A DNA stretch of 64,000 nt from Ryuthela nishihirai. Taxonomy: Eukaryota > Arthropoda > Arachnida > Araneae > Heptathelidae. Every line of letters begins with the position of its first letter. Position 1 is the first letter of the stretch. Positions 4,721-40,797 of this stretch are shown here, piece by piece. The DNA is taken from assembly GCA_038380435.1 (NCBI GenBank), contig JAWZYU010000005.1, positions 35,734,001 through 35,798,000 on the forward strand. The letters are read 5' to 3'. A program made the translations under genes and the position numbers. A model generated the notes under the pieces. That model was given only the letters and a program-made list of their open reading frames with translations, was not told where the DNA came from and did no database searches.

Positions 4721-5824
4721 TCAGTCGTCATCAAGATCGACGTAGTTTTTCATCACTGTGGGCAAAGGTAACTGACGGATCCCGTGCGGGAGTTGCCAAC
4801 AGTATCGGAGGTGCTGTCGAATGGCGCACCTGCACAAGTGTTGCAGTTCCGAGGGCTCGAGACACCTGCTTGCGAATTTGGGTGTCATGCCCTGTTCACT
4901 CATCTCGCGTACCATCAGGATCGCTTCGTCTGATCTCAAGAGGCGGTAACCGTTGGTGTAGTAGCACTTGAGCATCAAGGATGAGATCTGCAGCTGAGGA
5001 ATGACTCTCAGGATGATATTGATGCAGTTGAGCAGCAACGCTTTGAATTGCCACTGAACGGAAGGAAGGAGATAGACCGATCCGTCCACGGAGTTAGTTC
5101 GTATCAAACTTCGTAAGTACCAAGCCAGTAAAGCGTATACCCAACCGTTGTCATTGTAAGGACGAGCATTATCCGTGGACTTCAAAAGCGCCCCGTGCCG
5201 AAGCACCGTTATCAAAAGATGACAGTTCAAGAACATGGCAGCCATGCAGCATGGTGTCAGCCGCGATGGATGATGGAAACTGCTATCCAAGAAACGGCTT
5301 CCTGCCACTGTGAAGCGTGAACGACTGGCATGCTCCAAGAAGTAGACAAAAGGGGTTAGAAGACGTCCGTCAAGATAGTATCTGGCATTTTTCGTCCACG
5401 GCCACAGAGGTTCAGCTGTCTGTACTATTTCATGGTCAAATATCGCCCAGAAATGTCCGTCCGTCTCGTACACGAAACGCAAAACGTCGGTGACAAGATC
5501 ACTATCGGAAATCTGGCGCTCGAAGCATAATCTAGCGACGGAAGAGGTGACAAATTTGACGAATTCTCCCTCTCTGTCGTAGTTTTGCCATCTCAGCCAC
5601 TGACGCGATTGGTGAAGAACCCTCTTAAGACATTCCTCGCTCTCTATCGAAGGAATCGTACGATGGACCGCAGGAGAGAGGGCGTCACTCAGAAATCGGT
5701 GGAGACAGATCTTTTCCGTAAAACATTGCACATACCTGAATAAATGGCCGAGGAAGGATCGAATGCTTTCTGGTATGCCATTTCCGTGATGGTGGGCATC
5801 GTTCTGCTGGCTTGGAACCACCAT
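4721..5824 (-). CDS. SOCS-box protein, 367 aa
   Basis: The C-terminus is a recognisable SOCS box. A BC-box-like segment (about residues 322-340, with ELQHLCRCAIRQHL) would bind Elongin C. It is followed by a Cul5-box-like LPLPTVMKNYV (352-362). Such proteins act as substrate receptors of Cullin-RING ubiquitin ligases in the cytoplasm. The upstream 320 residues show no domain I can name with confidence. One stretch (around LTPCCMAAMFLNCHLLITVLRHGALL in the middle third) looks like a decayed ankyrin repeat. The ORF is open from ATG to TGA without introns, and AATAAA lies just downstream, so a complete single-exon gene or a retrocopy is likely. No repeat lies inside it. The substrate is unknown. 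Confidence 0.75.
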   Translation of the reverse strand: MVVPSQQNDAHHHGNGIPESIRSFLGHLFRYVQCFTEKICLHRFLSDALSPAVHRTIPSIESEECLKRVLHQSRQWLRWQNYDREGEFVKFVTSSVARLCFERQISDSDLVTDVLRFVYETDGHFWAIFDHEIVQTAEPLWPWTKNARYYLDGRLLTPFVYFLEHASRSRFTVAGSRFLDSSFHHPSRLTPCCMAAMFLNCHLLITVLRHGALLKSTDNARPYNDNGWVYALLAWYLRSLIRTNSVDGSVYLLPSVQWQFKALLLNCINIILRVIPQLQISSLMLKCYYTNGYRLLRSDEAILMVREMSEQGMTPKFASRCLEPSELQHLCRCAIRQHLRYCWQLPHGIRQLPLPTVMKNYVDLDDD

Positions 5825-29860: not shown

Positions 29861-30152
29861 TGGGAGTTGGCATATTTAAGTCTAAATGAGGGTGATGGGA
29901 GGAAGTTGACATTTGAGTCTCTGATTTTTGAAAATCCATAAAAAATATACGTTATTGAAGCCCTCAGGGGAATGTTATAACCCTCTTGAATATGCAAATG
30001 TTTAGGATTGTAGTAATTCAAATTATATACCGAAAGCACAATTTATTATACACACCGCACTCATCCACAAACCTGTCCTACACCACTACAATAATCCCTT
30101 GCGGGCTATAAATAGGTCAGGTTACCTGCTGTATAGTATACTTGCGACTGTT

Positions 30153-30284
30153 ATGATGGATAAACACGGCGACTTGACAGAGTTCGACGTGGGCAGATAG
30201 TCGGTGCGAGGAGGATGGAGTGTTCCATATCACAACTGCAGAAAGTTTGGGATTTCTGCATGAGAACCGTCGCACGTGTGTACC
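30153..30284 (+). pseudogene. Tc1-type transposase N-terminus, part 1
   Basis: ATG at 30153 or 30156 opens a frame with LTEFDVGR, then a stop, then IVGARRMECSISQLQKVWDF and RTVARVY. This is the usual start and helix-turn-helix of a Tc1-like transposase. The frame continues after the R1-clade insertion at 36933 with QDYI. At least one stop codon lies inside, so it was already dead or has died since. Confidence 0.7.
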
Positions 30285-30301
30285 TCTGGTTAATACGGGG
30301 T

Positions 30302-30331
30302 GGGGAGTGGGTCCCGAAGGACCCACTCCCC
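30302..30331 (-). other. 3'-terminal hairpin of the R1-clade LINE
   Basis: A perfect 13-bp stem (30302-30314 with 30319-30331) is closed on the RNA strand by C-UUCG-G, an exceptionally stable tetraloop. It lies 17 nt before the 3' end of the element. It may be what the element's own reverse transcriptase recognises. Confidence 0.85.
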
Positions 30332-30523
30332 ATGGGGAAAGCACGTGCTCCGTCTCACGACACTACACGTGCATAGCAACTAGAGGCTTGGAAATAGAAG
30401 ATGAAGTTTGTCTCAGAGGAGACCAGTCAGGACATGGAGTATGGGTGGCGTTAAAGGGGGTGCTGAGTGCAGCCCGGGGAGAAGGTAGGAAAATAAGTCA
30501 AAGAGAGAAAGCAGCCACGGAAC

Positions 30524-33500
30524 TCAAAGGAGAGAGTCCCGAAGCCGGCAGACAAGCCAGCCTATGTCCCTCAAGTGTGCCCTGACACGGGCACTCTCGA
30601 TGGACACCGAGACCAGTTCGCCTGCTACCTCATTGATCGCTTGGGAGTCCCTGAGTTCGTTAGCGAACCCTTCAGTAATCGGACATCTGAGGATATAGTG
30701 CCCGACATCTGCATCTGGAGCCCCACAGCCGCAGTAACTGTGGGCAGAGATTTTGAAACGCTCCAGGTATTTGGGGAAGCTCCCGTGTCCTGTTAGGACC
30801 TGCGTCAAATAGTGGTCAGAGGATCTCAGGGATAGACTGACCCTTTTCAAGAATGTCTTTGTTTGAAGACCATTCTCAGTCGTATCCCAGAGCCTCTGCC
30901 ACTCCTGAATGGTACCTTGGCCAATTATAGACTTCAGGGTAGTTTTTAAAGTCTTTACCGCTATCACAGGTTGAGTGTTATTACCTGCGGAACGGGCCAG
31001 TTGGTCGGCCCGCTCGTTTCCTTCATGTCCTACGTGTGCCTTAATCCAGGAGAAAGATACCCTGGGCATGCTCTGACTGCCCAGGATGCACTTGATCTCA
31101 TTCACTATTTGATGCCTGTTGGTTGCATCTTCAAGTGCATGCAGAGCTGCTTGGCTGTCTGTGTACAGCCTTATGTCGTTGTTCAGACCACCGTCATTGA
31201 GGGCCCAGTTAAGGGCCTCTCTGATAGCGAGCAGCTCTGCTTGGAAGGCCGAGCCATTATTTGAAACCTTCCTCTGAAAATCATACACTTTGGCCCCTTG
31301 ATTGAAGACAGTGAAGGCTAAGCCCACACCCTCCTCGCTCTTGGAACCGTCGGTGTATATTTCAGTATCTGTACCTGATGGTAACTCCGTGGACCAGGGC
31401 ACACATAGTCTCTTTGTGGGATGCAGATCCCACTTAGCGGTATTTACCTCATAATCCTCAGGGTCATATTGGACTCCGAGGAATGTTGCCTTTTCCTTAG
31501 CCTGCAGGACTCTGAATATGGTCGCTTCTTTACCGACCGTCAAAAATAGCGGAGGGATCCCTGCGAGTACCAGAAGGGCATCCGTAGATGTCGTCCTGTA
31601 TGCTCTGGTAATTCGCAGTAAAGCTGGTCGTTGGGCTGCAAGCAGCTTTCTACACATTATGGAGTGGTCCGTCGGGCGCCACCAGGCACCCGCACCATAT
31701 GTTAGGATCCTCTCCGTTCCCCTAAGATAAATTTCTTTGAGGACCTTGCTTCTGAGTCCCCATGAGACGCGAGCCATACGCCCCAGCTTACACATAACAT
31801 TTGTGCATTTAGCTTTTAGATCCTGCAGGTGTGGGATCCAGCTCATCCTCTCATCCAGAGTGATCCCTAGGTACTTTAATGTTGTCGCGTGGCGGATATT
31901 TTCGCCTTTTAGTTTGAAAATAGGATATCTCTTCTTGAGGACACCCTCCTTAGCAATAGTCATTGATGTAGTCTTTGCAACGCTGAACCCAAGCTTATTG
32001 CGCAGACACCATCCTTCCAATATTTTAATTGCTGCGTTGCCAGCATCCTCCAGCTTAGCTCTGGAGGACGCTGTTATGGCAAGCAGCAAGTCATCTGCGT
32101 ACGCCTGGAGCCAGACTCCCTCGGGCAAAGTCAACTCCAGAACAGAATCAGCGACTAAGTTCCAGAGGAACGGTCCGCTGCACGACCCTTGTGGGCAGCC
32201 TCTTTCCAAGTTTCTTGAGGCAGTCCCGCTAGCATGTGAGTAGGTGACCACCCTCTCGCTGAGGTAATTGGCCACTAGAGTGAAAATGTTCCTGGGACAG
32301 GAACTTTCCTTCAATTTATTCAAGATTGCAGGCCACCAGACGTTGTCGAACGCGCCTGTCACATCCAAGGCAATGAGAGAGGTGTGCAACTTGTGCATTT
32401 TATTTATCTGAACAATGTCCACCACCTGTTTGATAGCGGCGGTGGTGGACTGGTCTGTTCTGAACCCAAATTGCTTGGGATTCAAGAAACCGTTCTTATG
32501 ACAGTGGTAGTACATCCTGTTTGTCAGGAGTTTATCTAGCACTTTTCCCAACACCGGCAGCAGACATATCGGTCTGTAGGATCTTGCATCTGCCGGATCC
32601 CTACCTGCCTTGTTGAAGAGGACAAGGTCCGCCTGTTTCCAGGCGGTTGGGAAGGCTCCCAGATTCAAGCACTTGTTGAAGAGCTGGGTGAACAGGCTTT
32701 TATGTTCGTTAAACACCTGAGAAACGATCTCCACTGTCAGACCATCGTTACCCGGGGCTTTGCCCTGGGCCATTTCCCTGATTACCTCTCTCACCTCCTC
32801 TTCTGTAAACGGGACGTCATCCGGCGTATCCGGTGGAGTCCTACAATTTTCCCTAAGGAGTTGATGTTCTGCATCATCAGAGCTCCTGTCATCTTTAGGG
32901 AATAAGTTATCTAATAGTACCTGGATGGTCTCGCCAAAGGAAGTGGTCTTGGATCCATCTTCCTTGCGAACGTAAGCAATTTCCAGGGGTTTAAAATCTT
33001 TATCCGTAGCTAGCCTATACTGTAACGTGAAAGGGTTCTGTGCAGAGACCTCGCTGCAGAACTTCTGCCAGGAAGTCAGCTGCGCCTCTCGTATGGCGAG
33101 CTTATACTTTGCTTGTTCCTTCCTGTACAGTTCCTCTCTGGCACTTCTCTCCACATTGCGGCACCTTTGATATCTCCGTCTGAGAGCTCTTACTCTTTTC
33201 CTTCTAATTGTGAGCTCAGGTGTCCACCAAGGCACTGATTTATTGCCCGCTCTGGGTCGCCCTTTAAACCCGAAGGTCATCTCACATCCAGTACATAAAC
33301 ATTCAGTCAGTTCTCCCAAGATGTTATCTAGAGAACTGCTATCTCCTATGTCACTGATGCGCTGGCCGATCTTCGCCAGTTCCGGTGACACACAGCGCAT
33401 GAGCTTGCACCAAACAGGAGCTTTGCCCACCGCAAACCGTCGTGCATGTTGTGGCGGAGATGATGTTCCGCCCACCTGGAACATGATGTAATTATGGTCG

Positions 33501-34150
33501 CTGTTAGAGACCATGTCGCTGACGCACCAGCCCTGAATCAGGGGAAACAACCGAGGTGATACCAGGGTCAAGTCTATCCAGCTCTGCCCTCTTGGGCCAG
33601 TAAATGTAGCTGGAGTATCCCAATCATTTAATAAATACAAGTCAGCCGAGTTGATAAAATCAAGAGTCATATCTCCTCTGACATCTTGTCGGTTTGAACC
33701 CCACAGGGGATGCTTCGCATTGAAGTCCCCGCCGATAATTACGGTCTTAGAGTTAACCCGAGCCAGGACGTTTTGCAGCTCGTTTAACAAGTCCTCAATG
33801 TTGTTGTTTGGAGGACAGTAAATGGAGATGGCGTGTACTATTAACCGTCCATACCCAATCTCCACTACTACAATTTTATCTGTGTGATATGCCAAGATGG
33901 CATTCACCTTGGGGTTCAAAACAACAATTCCAGCTTTTGGCTTGGTGCCTTTTTCGCAAAAGTGCCTGCTAGTCAGAGGGAGCCCTCTAATGACGTTCTC
34001 TGTGCAGTAGGGTTCCTGCACAAGAGCAACATCGACTCCTTCCTCTTTTATCACCTGGCTGAACTGGGCCATTGCGGCCCTAGCCCCATTTAGATTTATT
34101 TGAACAAATTTAAGACTTACCCCTCGAACACCTGGAGGCCTACTGCCCAT
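30524..34150 (-). CDS. R1-clade LINE ORF2: endonuclease-RT-RNase H, 1208 aa
   Basis: The N-terminus (about residues 13-225) is an APE-type endonuclease with QINLN, QEPY, GGDFNAKH (140-147) and SDHN (217-220). It would nick the target strand. The reverse transcriptase (about 450-830) has SYRPICLLP, ALDVTGAFD (594-602), GCPQGS (651-656) and YADD (684-687). RNase H (about 928-1056) has all four acidic residues D934, E972, D998 and D1049, and the HVGHEGNERAD motif. A C-terminal zinc knuckle has C1140, C1142, H1151 and C1156. No stop or frameshift is present. The ATG overlaps the end of ORF1 by 11 nt in another frame (ATGGGCAGTAG), suggesting coupled translation. It mediates target-primed reverse transcription. 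RNase H is found in only some R1 relatives. Confidence 0.95.
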   Translation of the reverse strand: MGSRPPGVRGVSLKFVQINLNGARAAMAQFSQVIKEEGVDVALVQEPYCTENVIRGLPLTSRHFCEKGTKPKAGIVVLNPKVNAILAYHTDKIVVVEIGYGRLIVHAISIYCPPNNNIEDLLNELQNVLARVNSKTVIIGGDFNAKHPLWGSNRQDVRGDMTLDFINSADLYLLNDWDTPATFTGPRGQSWIDLTLVSPRLFPLIQGWCVSDMVSNSDHNYIMFQVGGTSSPPQHARRFAVGKAPVWCKLMRCVSPELAKIGQRISDIGDSSSLDNILGELTECLCTGCEMTFGFKGRPRAGNKSVPWWTPELTIRRKRVRALRRRYQRCRNVERSAREELYRKEQAKYKLAIREAQLTSWQKFCSEVSAQNPFTLQYRLATDKDFKPLEIAYVRKEDGSKTTSFGETIQVLLDNLFPKDDRSSDDAEHQLLRENCRTPPDTPDDVPFTEEEVREVIREMAQGKAPGNDGLTVEIVSQVFNEHKSLFTQLFNKCLNLGAFPTAWKQADLVLFNKAGRDPADARSYRPICLLPVLGKVLDKLLTNRMYYHCHKNGFLNPKQFGFRTDQSTTAAIKQVVDIVQINKMHKLHTSLIALDVTGAFDNVWWPAILNKLKESSCPRNIFTLVANYLSERVVTYSHASGTASRNLERGCPQGSCSGPFLWNLVADSVLELTLPEGVWLQAYADDLLLAITASSRAKLEDAGNAAIKILEGWCLRNKLGFSVAKTTSMTIAKEGVLKKRYPIFKLKGENIRHATTLKYLGITLDERMSWIPHLQDLKAKCTNVMCKLGRMARVSWGLRSKVLKEIYLRGTERILTYGAGAWWRPTDHSIMCRKLLAAQRPALLRITRAYRTTSTDALLVLAGIPPLFLTVGKEATIFRVLQAKEKATFLGVQYDPEDYEVNTAKWDLHPTKRLCVPWSTELPSGTDTEIYTDGSKSEEGVGLAFTVFNQGAKVYDFQRKVSNNGSAFQAELLAIREALNWALNDGGLNNDIRLYTDSQAALHALEDATNRHQIVNEIKCILGSQSMPRVSFSWIKAHVGHEGNERADQLARSAGNNTQPVIAVKTLKTTLKSIIGQGTIQEWQRLWDTTENGLQTKTFLKRVSLSLRSSDHYLTQVLTGHGSFPKYLERFKISAHSYCGCGAPDADVGHYILRCPITEGFANELRDSQAINEVAGELVSVSIESARVRAHLRDIGWLVCRLRDSLL

Positions 34151-35495
34151 AGTCGGTGCGTCGTCGCAACAACTTCATCTCACGACAGTACGATGGGCAC
34201 TTCGTGTCCATCGCACTGTGGCCAATGTCATACTTGGCCCCATGCTCCCTATTGGCGGTTTTACAAACAATGCACTTTGGTTTGGGCTTCGTGCACTCCT
34301 TGTAAGAGTGCTTGCCCGCACACTGTGAGCACCGTTGCGTCTTTAACTCGCACTCGGTCTGCTTGTGCCCAAATGCATAGCACTTGTAGCACCGCAGAAC
34401 CCTGATGTAGTCCTTGACTATACATCTAGACCAACCCACATTTAGCTTACCTACAGCTAATATTTTCCTGTGCGAGGCACTAGTGGCCTCCACCACCCAG
34501 TGGACCGTGTTCTCCACTCGGGCCTTTATCGAGAAGAGTGGGTTTATGTCCACCTCTTCTTCACCTAGACTATTTTGGCTGCGGATAATCTTCTGGAGGT
34601 CCTCGCGGGGAACGTCCTTATCCACACTACAGATCATTATCTTAGGCTTCAGTCTTACGGCAGATTTGGCCTCTAGAGTATTCTTGAGCGATTCATGGCT
34701 GTCCACTGCGTTTTTAAGACAGGCCATGTCACTCTCCGAGCTACATTCCACTATTACTCCGTTTGCCCTCATTGGTTTAACGGTCATAACCCCCAGATTC
34801 AGGTCTGCGGGGTTGATGTTACTCTTCAGGCTATCCCTTACCTGCAATGCTGTCGTTTCCTTGTTTTTCGAATAGATCAGCAGGGTATGCCTGGTTTTCT
34901 TTACAGGGGGGGTGGGCTTTGGAGCTACCACCGAACCTCCCTTGCCCTTTCCTTGACCACCAACTGCCTTCGCGTAAGTTGGTGGCCTTTCCTTTACTAC
35001 TTGTGGACGTGTAGCTCGCTCCTTCAGCTGTCCACTCATGGTCGCGAGTTCTATCTCTTGCTCGCAAATTATGGTGTGTAGCTTTCGTGCTACACCCATG
35101 ACCATGCTCTTCAGATCTGTGTCTACCCTGTGGCGGAACAGCTCCACCGCGAGTTCCTCCAGCAGGCCAGCCGCATTGGCCAACCTACCTGAGCCCATCT
35201 CGTTTCCGTTGGGCTCTTCTTGTGTATCCGGGGCTGCCTCTTTGGCTATGCACCCTTCATCCCCGCCTATATTTGGGTTCTCTCCTTCCTTTGGAGGACC
35301 CTTTACCTCTTCCGTATCACTTGTGGTGGGAGGGGGAGTCTCTGGGACTTCCTCCACTACCACTTCTAGATCAGCAGCCTCCTTGGGCTTGCTGTCTTTT
35401 CTACTGGTCCTTTTGTCTCGATCACCTGAAGCCGTCGTTACGCGTTGATATCTCATGTTGAGGTATATTGTTCGACCCAGGCGGTCTCCACCCAC
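34140..35495 (-). CDS. R1-clade LINE ORF1: Gag-like RNA-binding protein, 451 aa
   Basis: The C-terminus carries zinc knuckles of the type common to R1, TRAS and Jockey ORF1 proteins: C-X2-C-X4-H-X4-C (369-382), C-X2-C-X3-H-X4-C (389-401), and a third, longer one starting CIVC at 408. The N-terminal third is charged and rich in E, P and T. The middle (about 200-350) would hold the RRM-like and multimerisation part of such proteins, but no residue proves this. It packages the element RNA. ORF2 begins within its last codons. Uninterrupted reading supports recent activity. Confidence 0.92.
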   Translation of the reverse strand: MGGDRLGRTIYLNMRYQRVTTASGDRDKRTSRKDSKPKEAADLEVVVEEVPETPPPTTSDTEEVKGPPKEGENPNIGGDEGCIAKEAAPDTQEEPNGNEMGSGRLANAAGLLEELAVELFRHRVDTDLKSMVMGVARKLHTIICEQEIELATMSGQLKERATRPQVVKERPPTYAKAVGGQGKGKGGSVVAPKPTPPVKKTRHTLLIYSKNKETTALQVRDSLKSNINPADLNLGVMTVKPMRANGVIVECSSESDMACLKNAVDSHESLKNTLEAKSAVRLKPKIMICSVDKDVPREDLQKIIRSQNSLGEEEVDINPLFSIKARVENTVHWVVEATSASHRKILAVGKLNVGWSRCIVKDYIRVLRCYKCYAFGHKQTECELKTQRCSQCAGKHSYKECTKPKPKCIVCKTANREHGAKYDIGHSAMDTKCPSYCREMKLLRRRTDYGQ

Positions 35496-36919
35496 AACGG
35501 AGCCCTACAAGGGGAGGCCTCAGAGTTAAATTCGTCGCTCGAGGTACCTCAGAGATACGCCCAGGTTATACCCAGACTTTGGCTCTCCCCTCAGACCAGA
35601 GCATGATCCGGGCCGAGGCCCGGAACTCGTCCGGGCCCAGGTCCGGAACTCGTCCGGGCCCAGGTCCGGACCCAACCCCTATCGTCAAGAATCACCTCCA
35701 CCCGGTTGACTCAGCAACAGCCCCTGACCCATCCCGGTCAAGGGGTGGGACAGGGGATGCCTCACGTACCGATTGATCCGAGTGAGCCAGCTCGGACCTC
35801 CCGTTTTACTGAAGCGGAGGCCAAGGACGGTGTATTGGGATACCAGCTTGCCTGTCCCTCAACCGCCAGGACCCTCTTTTCCATGTTACGGGTCTCCACC
35901 CACGGTAGAACAGGTGGGCCACTGATAGGTGTGGCGACCATGATATATTCTCCCCACCTTGCCCATCAGGGCACAATCTAAACCTAAACACTGGCCGCTT
36001 TTGCCTATTAGATAAGTTGTTCAATTTGAACAATCTCGGCCAGTCTCCTTCCTTGAGTCCAACTAGGAAGTAGGCCTGCGCCATCGGGACGTCTTGAGGC
36101 GCGTACTCCGGGTAGAGTTCATCCTAACCTCCACCCGGAAATGGAAAAACCAGAGGCGTAATAATGGGGGAGGACGGAAGTCCCCTGTCCAAAGGACCAG
36201 GACTCCCATCCTCCCCCGTGTTAATGAAACGACCTCAGCCTAATCTCTACGAATGATCTGATTTTGAGACCAGTGAACCTAAAAAGAAAATAAAAACGGG
36301 TTGGAGAGGAGCCTGTGCCTTTCGACACAGGCCGCCTCTCCCCTTTGACAACAGACCTGTAATATCGGCTCTCCTCATAGCCACAGGCGTCTGTACGCCT
36401 TTACCTCTGTAGTGTGTTCACCCTCCACACTTTCCATTTCCTAAACTTTACTGCAGTCATTCTAAGAACCTTGACTGCAGTAATTAAAAATTTTCCTTAA
36501 CAAATTTCGTCCGTCTCATCAACCTTTCTTCACACCTCCATTCCAATCATACTCCCTTCATTCGTGCTGCCTTTTGCACTGTTCTAACTCTCCTGTTCTA
36601 TCTTACTCCACATCTCTTCTCTCCAATCCTCAGTCCTCTTTCACAGCCCACCTCCAGCTGTACTCAAGTAATAACATAGTTGGCCTTGCCAACTGACCAC
36701 CACACACCTTGGTATTCTCCTGTGGGGTCCCACTTTCCTCACCACCATTCACCACATCTCTTTTCACTCTCTTCCTTCGTCTGTCCTTACTTGGGAACTC
36801 TTAGTCTGGCCTTTCCATCTCGGCCTGTCCGACATGAGTAACTCTGGTCGGCATAGCCCTCGACTTCATTAAGGCACGCAAGCCCCCCCACCACGACAAG
36901 GTGGTTCCCTTCGAGGGGG
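35496..36919 (-). promoter_or_regulatory. 5' UTR of the R1-clade LINE
   Basis: On the RNA strand the first about 75 nt hold a C6 tract, GGGAACCACCTTGTCGTGG, a G7 tract and GTCGAGGGCTATGCCGACC, able to form a stem around an inner hairpin. Further inside are a hairpin at 36303-36341, one at 36166-36217, and a 23-bp direct repeat (about 35621-35666, CGGAACTCGTCCGGGCCCAG). As in other LINEs, an internal promoter should lie at the very 5' end. A self-cleaving ribozyme is possible but was not shown. Confidence 0.7.
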
Positions 36920-36932
36920 GCACGTGTGTACC

Positions 36933-37010
36933 AGGACTACATCTAAACCAGAAAAACCTGCAGCCACCGGAAAAAGTGTAGACATAACTGAGCCATTGAT
37001 GTTCGAAGTG
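36933..37010 (+). pseudogene. Tc1-type transposase N-terminus, part 2
   Basis: Continues the frame broken at 30284 with QDYI, a stop, TRKTCSHRKK, as expected for the linker after the first DNA-binding helix bundle. Similarity ends soon after. Confidence 0.6.
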
Positions 37011-37051
37011 AGTTCCGCCTCTCCAGTATCGTAATGTCAGATATATGGATC

Positions 37052-37136
37052 CTTTACCTAGATATGCAAGAAAAAGATATCAGGAAGGCAGCTTAGTTGG
37101 CTACCTCATATCTTTTTCTTGCATATATAGGTAAAG
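37052..37136. repeat. Hairpin with 29-bp arms
   Basis: Arms 37052-37080 and 37108-37136 are inverse copies with one or two mismatches; the loop is 27 nt. It lies at the 5' edge of an old SINE-B. Confidence 0.88.
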
Positions 37137-39327: not shown

Positions 39328-40797
39328 CAGGGTGTCCCAAAATTATAGGTACAAACTTTTAGGGGAGGTAGATAACATCTAAAGGAATGAGAATTGCATA
39401 GGAACCCATAATCGGAAACGTCACCATAAGTCAATAGGCGGCGCTGTTCATCAGTGCGCTAGAGGAGAAATTTCGGATTTCCTCATTCGAGCGGTAGTCG
39501 GCTGAAGAGCATGCAAAGGTATTCGAACAGGGAGCTGGCAGACATGCACTTAGTGCATGGAATAGCTGAGGGCAACGGACGAGCCGCTCAACGAATGTAT
39601 CAAGAACGCTTCCCACACAGATATGTACCGGGCCACCGTTTGTTTGCGCGTGCGCATCAAAATTTGCGCGATTATGGGTCATTAAGAGGTAGCAGAAGTG
39701 AGGGCAGGCCACGATTGACGCGTACTCCCGCCATGGAAGAAAGTGTGTTGGATGCCGTGGAGACTAATCCTAGTACCAGCGCACGTGTCGTTGCCTCTGC
39801 CTTAGGAGTGTCTCGTTGCAGTGTACAGCGTGTTTTGAACGGCGAATCCTTACACCTCTTTCATCTCCAAAGGGTTCAGTTACTTCTCCTTGCAGATCAT
39901 CCTGCACGTGTGCGTTTTGCGCAGTGGTATCTCCAAGAAAGTGCCCAAAATGTGAATTTCCCAGCTTATGTTTTGTTTACTGCTGAGGCCAGTTTCACTC
40001 GGGATGGCGTATTCAATCAGCACAATGCGCATTTGTGGGCTCACGAGAACCCCCACGGTGTGCGCACCCATGCGGCACAACATCGTTTCGCAGTAAATGT
40101 GTGGGCAGGTTTGGTCGGCGACTGTTTAGTCGGGCCATACCTTTTACCATCCCGCATGACCTCCGCGAAGTATCTGATCTTTCTGCAACAGATTCTACCA
40201 GGCTTACTTGCCCATGTTCCAGCAAATGTGAGACGCAATATGTGGTTTCAACATGATGGGGCGCCTCCCCATTATGGAAGGTGTGTTCGTGCGCATTTGA
40301 ACATGTCTTTTGGGCAACGATGGATTGGGCGTGCTGGACCAGTTGCCTGGCCCCCACGCTCACCTGATTTAACGAGCGTTGATTTCTTTCTGTGGGGGGC
40401 CCTCAAAGCTACTGTGTATGAATCGCCTGTGGAGTCTGACATAGATCTCGTGGCAAGGCTTGTCTGCGCTGCTGCTACTATCAAAGAAACTCCAGGTGTG
40501 TCCGACCGTGACCGGCAATCAATGCTACGTCGGTGTCACGCATGCATCGCATCACATGGTGGAAACTTCGAGCATCTGCTGTAACATTATGAAATGTATC
40601 ATCTAGTACGCCATTTGTAATAATTATGTCCAATAAATGTTTTCCCATTAATCACTGTCTTTTGTCATTTCAGAACTTGTACCTCTGTTCCCACTTTCCC
40701 ATGACGTTTTCGGTTATGGGTTCCTATGCAATTCTCATTCCTTTAGATGTTATCTACTTCCCCTAAAAGTTTGTACCTATATTTTTGAGACACCCTG
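39328..40797 (+). mobile_element. Mariner-like DNA transposon, full length
   Basis: It is 1,470 bp, flanked by TA on both sides (39326-39327 and 40798-40799). The ends start CAGGGTGTC and are inverted copies over about 98 bp with few mismatches, much longer than in classical mariner. One transposase ORF fills the middle. The ends and ORF are hardly decayed. Confidence 0.93.
39511..40584 (+). CDS. Mariner/Tc1-type transposase, 357 aa, first catalytic Asp changed
   Basis: The N-terminal half has a DNA-binding part starting MQRYSNRELADMHLVHG, with the second helix-turn-helix near 75-115 (SARVVASALGVSRCSVQRVL). The DDE domain follows. Its second acid is D249 in WFQHDGAPPH. The third is D291 in PDLTSVDFFLWG. 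Where relatives have FTDEA, this protein has FTAEA (156-160), so the first metal-binding Asp is Ala158 (codon GCT, one base from GAT). Cleavage activity should be lost, although DNA binding could remain. The ORF is otherwise intact. It may act as a dead or repressor form, or simply be the first step of decay. Confidence 0.9.
   Translation: MQRYSNRELADMHLVHGIAEGNGRAAQRMYQERFPHRYVPGHRLFARAHQNLRDYGSLRGSRSEGRPRLTRTPAMEESVLDAVETNPSTSARVVASALGVSRCSVQRVLNGESLHLFHLQRVQLLLLADHPARVRFAQWYLQESAQNVNFPAYVLFTAEASFTRDGVFNQHNAHLWAHENPHGVRTHAAQHRFAVNVWAGLVGDCLVGPYLLPSRMTSAKYLIFLQQILPGLLAHVPANVRRNMWFQHDGAPPHYGRCVRAHLNMSFGQRWIGRAGPVAWPPRSPDLTSVDFFLWGALKATVYESPVESDIDLVARLVCAAATIKETPGVSDRDRQSMLRRCHACIASHGGNFEHLL

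Follow-up and report, generated by a model that had tools for sequence, protein, structure and literature searches.

An apparently intact R1-type LINE in an old Tc1-like transposon, from a family with copies at the 28S R1 site

Among the LINEs of the R1 clade, Waldo and Mino have (ACAY)n and (AC)n targets, and TRAS is telomeric. The R1 elements of Drosophila and Bombyx, the "ancestral type", reside in the 28S rDNA, and PMC2718515 describes for them an insertion point 60 bp downstream of the R2 site, a 14-bp TSD (11 or 13 bp in some species), a constant 3' junction, an endonuclease and reverse transcriptase, and tandem copies. That paper also describes R1 insertions outside the 28S gene that share bases with it: in Drosophila there are 118 unique ones, those with two known junctions sharing 4–9 bp with the 28S site, and in B. 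mori they are called frequent.

The window analysed here is the whole 64,000-nucleotide stretch G000:C5:35734001-35798000 of a 3.11-Gb genome assembly. A 6.6-kb LINE occupies its minus strand from 36919 to 30285, flanked by 13-bp TSDs (GCACGTGTGTACC at 30272-30284 and 36920-36932); the element's terminal GG is also the opening dinucleotide of the 3' TSD (30283-30284). The features of the locus, in window coordinates, are as follows.

30285..36919, minus strand: R1 LINE insertion, 5' end at 36919 and 3' end at 30285, with a 13-bp TSD and termini common to the 28S-located copies
30272..30284, no strand assigned: TSD copy at the element's 3' end, GGTACACACGTGC in element sense
36920..36932, no strand assigned: TSD copy at the element's 5' end, a 13-bp direct repeat
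34140..35495, minus strand: ORF1, 451 aa counted from a GTG, the first ATG being codon 14; three zinc knuckles
30524..34150, minus strand: ORF2, 1208 aa, with endonuclease, reverse transcriptase, RNase H and CCHC
33482..34102, minus strand: AP-type endonuclease domain, residues 17-223 (Pfam; PDB sequence matches to TRAS1 and R1Bm)
31856..32587, minus strand: reverse transcriptase domain with YADD (Pfam and motif)
30986..31369, minus strand: RNase H domain (Pfam and motifs)
30683..30733, minus strand: C-terminal CCHC motif (motif reading)
35607..35675, minus strand: 23-bp tandem repeat in the 5' UTR
36166..36217, minus strand: second strong hairpin, within the 5' UTR (z -6.5 for 101 nt)
30301..30332, minus strand: 3'-terminal hairpin of 14 bp closed by a UUCG loop, lying 16 nt in from the 3' boundary (last 100 nt, z -6.3)
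30023..30271, plus strand: host Tc1-like copy before the insertion, decayed (similarity to Tc1-like relatives)
36933..37050, plus strand: host Tc1-like copy after the insertion, end approximate (alignment with relatives)

Both ORFs are open in the window copy, ORF1 overlapping the start of ORF2 by 11 nt. Pfam recovered RVT_1 (1e-35), Exo_endo_phos_2 (2e-28) and RNase_H (5e-17) in ORF2, and the motifs QEPY, GDFNA, SDHN, YADD, TDGSK/AELLAI/TDSQ/ADQLA and a C-terminal CCHC can be read along it. A helicase domain was not found in ORF2 by Pfam, unlike in the R1 LINEs with a C-terminal helicase (PMC4686597), whose ORF2 is homologous: some matches of the window ORF2 in a protein collection carry PF01443. 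Among PDB sequences, the closest solved endonuclease is that of TRAS1 (1wdu, 3e-24), followed by that of R1Bm (2ei9, 2e-18), and the L1 endonuclease region reached 5 bits against the window endonuclease in this search. ORF1 had no PDB relative at 0.001, and its zinc knuckle gave a Pfam match below the cut-off. A search of a protein collection returned 352 relatives among 7990 scored candidates; the 120 listed are 29–37% identical, and the named ones among these come from arachnids and insects, several being called R1DM. The AP-type endonuclease of R1/TRAS type, the reverse transcriptase and the ORF1 with zinc knuckles are those of an R1-type element. The coordinates, Pfam and motif reading thus bear out the original prediction of a 6.6-kb LINE with a 13-bp TSD, two open ORFs and the catalytic motifs, and the window copy appears to be a young and intact R1 element.

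Alignments to other genomic copies break at the 23-bp tandem repeat of the 5' UTR, so its copy number probably varies among copies. The structure at the 5' end is not unusual, and an Rfam search gave no match to a 5' self-cleaving ribozyme of the HDV type. The bases flanking the 5' UTR hairpin resemble those beside the 3' hairpin; it may be the remnant of an older 3' end taken up into the 5' UTR. The terminal UUCG hairpin is unstable across copies: L015 has a fold-back copy of the adjacent 3' UTR together with a palindrome of the terminus, L058 has the hairpin duplicated, L057 ends exactly at it and L029 has its loop inverted. Snap-back reverse transcription at the RNA 3' end could generate such instability.

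Tc1-like relatives of the sequence around the element were found in 39 other places with at least one match scored from 2250 candidates, the main matches being 76–82% identical. The empty site (the flanks with one TSD copy) aligns across the insertion point with six of these relatives, which indicates that the insertion is real and agrees with the earlier reading of an intact R1-type LINE inside a Tc1-type element. None of the six, all of which read through the position, carries the insert there; the 13-bp target sequence, present in a single version in each of them, varies among the Tc1 copies. The flanks had also been read as the continuous start of a Tc1-like transposase with homology from 30153. 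This continuity stands for the DNA and fails for an open frame, since the host copy lacks one base found in all six relatives and has an early stop in frame; the homology is likewise real, with its beginning moved to near 30020. Judged by its sequence, the host copy is old and broken. Pfam gave nothing useful on two short stop-free fragments of the relatives, and the Tc1 label rests on the continuity of the repeat family, one relative of which (L059) carries the motif DLNPIEHL that we take to mark a Tc1-type element, and on the first reading of the sequence. Directly past the Tc1 remnant lies a 42-nt inverted repeat with a 1-nt spacer (37052-37136). Elsewhere in the window, a 357-aa ORF (39511-40584, plus strand) has weak, below-cut-off matches to helix-turn-helix and Tc3-type transposase domains, and a 367-aa ORF with a SOCS box (4721-5824, minus strand; PF07525, 1e-14) is probably a host gene or exon; a search with the latter gave one hit, covering 11% of the ORF.

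The original prediction implied a contrast between this element and the classical R1 of 28S rDNA, which does not survive for the family: the canonical 28S site holds copies that share its termini, and two of these appear to be full length. When the 5' 500 bp served as query, 40 of 1029 candidates were scored, and flanks were obtained for 19 of the 39 other copies. One of these, L071 (C51:1500929), matches the window copy at 96% across those 500 bp and has a 5' flank of 28S rDNA ending in TGTCCCTATCTACT; 50 bp of this flank match Rfam LSU_rRNA_eukarya with an E of 1.3e-10 and a score of 46 against a gathering value of 50 bits, a shortfall expected for 50 bp. A search with L071 as query, which gave 42 matches from 40 scored of 185 candidates, returned five exact 81/81 matches to 28S joined at the canonical R1 site to the first 31 bp of the element (C86, C31 and three on C51), and further 28S matches without the element start. 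The 3' junction, CCAGAGG followed by TGTCCCTATCTACT, occurs exactly three times, always on contig C51 (control, 0). Two of these occurrences pair with a 5' junction 6.6 kb away on C51, giving the two apparently full-length copies (C51:805376-811984 and 2818884-2825491); in the third, the 28S match ends at the same base (2486565) and the element's 3' end is near 2490647, 4.1 kb away, which looks like a separate 5'-truncated insertion. The TSD at 28S is 14 bp long, TGTCCCTATCTACT standing before the 5' end of the element and after its 3' end; we take these 14 bases to be the R1 TSD, which fits the published 60-bp distance. From the shared 28S junction of CCAGAGG with the 14 bp it follows that the element's 3' end is ...AACCAGAGG. 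In both position and TSD length the 28S insertions are as in the R1 of Drosophila and Bombyx described in PMC2718515, with which the family also shares the constant 3' junction, the endonuclease and reverse transcriptase, tandem copies and off-28S insertions at sites having bases in common with 28S; the window copy itself lies elsewhere, and in the assembly, where the rDNA may be collapsed, the family is mostly dispersed. The 3.5-Mb contig C51 has six listed 28S matches separated by hundreds of kb, a spacing that does not fit a normal rDNA array, and three of the six have an R1 5' junction.

When the query was extended by the 28S flank to 316 bases, 40 3' ends were scored out of 2010 candidates and not one of them matched over the full length: 39 stop by 309, and that at C15:24423565 reaches 313 of 316 at 97%. 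The three exact C51 junctions fall outside these 40 and hence lie farther from the window copy than do its closest kin, of which the known 28S copies may represent a sister subfamily. Since the top 40 3' ends include no full 28S junction, the dispersing copies may form a subfamily of their own. The measured link between the window copy and 28S is one copy, at 96% over 500 bp; by this comparison their membership in one family is well supported, and direct descent between them is not. The dispersed copies may descend from 28S-resident ones.

Over about 1 kb of 3' end, all 40 scored copies (of 2314 candidates), spread over many contigs, show an identity of 98% or more with the window copy. The 29-nt 3'-terminal sequence has 409 exact matches in the assembly (control, 0), a figure that misses mutated ends and contains at least one palindromic pair, so that the copies it counts are slightly fewer. 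The 3' flanks of 30 of the 40 scored copies gave 27 distinct junctions, in 23 of which CCAGA continues with GGT. Reading 20 of the 40 over 8.5 kb, we found 7 full-length and 13 5'-truncated copies (11 distinct). All seven full-length copies, read at both ends, have a TSD, of 13–14 bp in six; L050 shares 16 bases, with a boundary blurred by a C run. Off 28S the TSD is mostly 13 bp, as against the 14 bp of R1. Among the truncated copies, L038 has a 13-bp TSD found by script and L045 one read by eye (TGTTCATTGATGA), whereas 9 of the 11 distinct ones yielded no 13-bp TSD, which suggests another way of completing the 5' end. The copies without it are L032, L033, L035, L037, L039-L042, L044, L048 and L049. 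Both ORFs are open in two of the 20 copies (the window copy and L036), and ORF2 is whole in five, these two included. L036 and L050 have longer runs of C at the 5' junction than the usual five, possibly through slippage or non-templated addition. On contig C88, L067 and L068 form a head-to-tail tandem, in which a 3' end is followed by the 13 bp TGTCCGTCCTTGT and then by the next 5' end, and L024 lies about 20 bp from the 5' end of what seems to be a relative, distinct from this element yet similar to it at the 5' terminus.

The target was studied in 24 distinct full-length 5' flanks, comprising 17 of the above 19 (L071 included; L066, with a shifted start, and L068, with the same flank as L067, were left out) and the 7 full-length copies read over 8.5 kb. 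A GT starts 11–13 bases before the junction, where the 28S site also has GT, in 21 of the 24 (18 when terminal Cs are left untrimmed), compared with 2–6 of 24 in untrimmed control 3-base windows farther upstream, the offsets having been picked after inspection; the flanks without it are L070, L072 and L077. A finer comparison used 22 sites, namely the GT-bearing ones with L038 and L045 and without L071; these were registered on GT, which is therefore no evidence in it. C is enriched at -1 and at +5 (13/22 and p 3e-5 at both positions, relative to the base composition of 15 flanks), T at +7 (13/22, p 0.005) and pyrimidine at -4 (20/22, p 4e-5), with p values uncorrected over 19 positions, most of which have no signal. 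The 28S site has C at -1, +5 and -4 and T at +7. For the whole TSD minus GT the match to 28S has p 0.07, suggestive but not significant, and for the upstream part p 0.30, likewise not significant, so the likeness is to a core of the 28S site and not to the whole of it. The target bias seen in these alignments is thus a short motif centred on GT and similar to the 28S R1 site. The GT offset and the C at -1 and +5, both as in 28S, suggest that the dispersed copies arose by target-primed insertion at a relaxed version of that site. The telomeric repeats targeted by TRAS were not seen among the flanks examined by eye; as with Waldo and Mino, the strand that would be nicked reads AC where it is cleaved, but the flanks of this family, by eye, are not microsatellites.

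We assign a probability of about 0.85 to the reading that this is a recently mobile R1 of a family that uses the 28S site with a 14-bp TSD and lies mostly elsewhere in the assembly, the window copy having entered the Tc1-like transposon by chance. The DNA would be nicked at Y/DGT, with priming on the RNA 3' end, and the top strand would be cut 13–14 bp away; the window copy would thereby have landed at its site T/GGTACAC, with cuts presumably made by its own ORF2. The target would pair with an RNA that ends in CCAGAGG and might continue into 28S: where the site is GGT or AGT, the element lacks terminal bases that the target supplies (CCAGA/GGT, CCAG/AGT), and at the two TGT sites for which both flanks were read (L043, L045) CCAGAGG is complete, a pattern that fits such pairing. 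A read-through tail is proposed for Drosophila R1 in PMC2718515, and the element RNA here might have one.

Pairing of this RNA end (...CCAGAGG, perhaps on into the TGT of 28S) might be the sole source of the junction GT, with no preference of the endonuclease. The 2-nt overlap of element ends with the target at GGT and AGT sites speaks for this, as does the GGTGT of 28S at 10 of the 27 3' junctions; we nevertheless find it doubtful, as the biases to C at -1 and +5 and to T at +7 fall outside that overlap. The GT in the 5' target copy (21/24) belongs to the target, and by itself does not separate cleavage from pairing; the bias would come from the endonuclease beyond any pairing. The original prediction left it between chance and a preferred multicopy target in Tc1-like transposons, to be decided by aligning the flanks of other copies. 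Apart from the one copy within a Tc1-like repeat, these flanks give the second option so little that we consider it extremely improbable: within the sample read, it is rejected because 1 of the 27 distinct 3' junctions, the window copy's own, lies in Tc1 and none of the six relatives is occupied at the site, and the 13 bp are themselves variable among Tc1 copies. This comparison took in 3' flanks of 400 bp and incomplete Tc1 copies, and could miss a very diverged Tc1 remnant; other flank similarities to Tc1-relative loci were read as further dispersed repeats in those loci. Insertion into Tc1 thus looks like chance, with the short GT-centred bias in place of a Tc1 preference.

It would also be conceivable that this is a generalist LINE of the R1 clade, never 28S-specific, whose 28S copies arose by chance among hundreds of GT sites. 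The 409 exact 3' termini do far exceed the assembled 28S junctions (five and three), and none of the 3' ends closest to the window copy is a complete 28S junction; but for five 28S junctions to share a single position, the one published for R1 and with its 14-bp TSD, would be a remarkable coincidence when the site varies elsewhere, and we judge this unlikely. Their origin in a single duplicated event is less likely, given the C51 junction pair 2486565/~2490647 that looks like a separate 5'-truncated insertion. Within our preferred reading of a recently mobile 28S-site R1, the further step that a 28S-specific R1 gave rise, in one genome, to a dispersing subfamily that retains, of the 28S recognition site, only the core (GT at +2/+3, C at -1 and +5) and accounts for hundreds of young insertions is tentative, with a chance that we put a little below even.

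Insertion of R1 outside 28S is already known, and the striking feature here is how widely the family has dispersed while keeping its 28S insertions: 409 3'-terminal matches against a handful of assembled 28S junctions, compared with the 118 unique off-28S insertions given for Drosophila in PMC2718515. Searches of open-licence papers listed no report of a comparable case. The gain and loss of specificity in site-specific retrotransposons is an old question, and the R1 and R2 proteins serve as models of targeted insertion. A family with strict 28S insertions and many relaxed ones documents, as a natural experiment, the bases of the target that count, and its 28S-resident and dispersed copies offer a clear comparison for testing their importance. 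If the proposed history is true, one genome would preserve the passage from strict to relaxed targeting, and the accompanying changes in the endonuclease would be readable from it.
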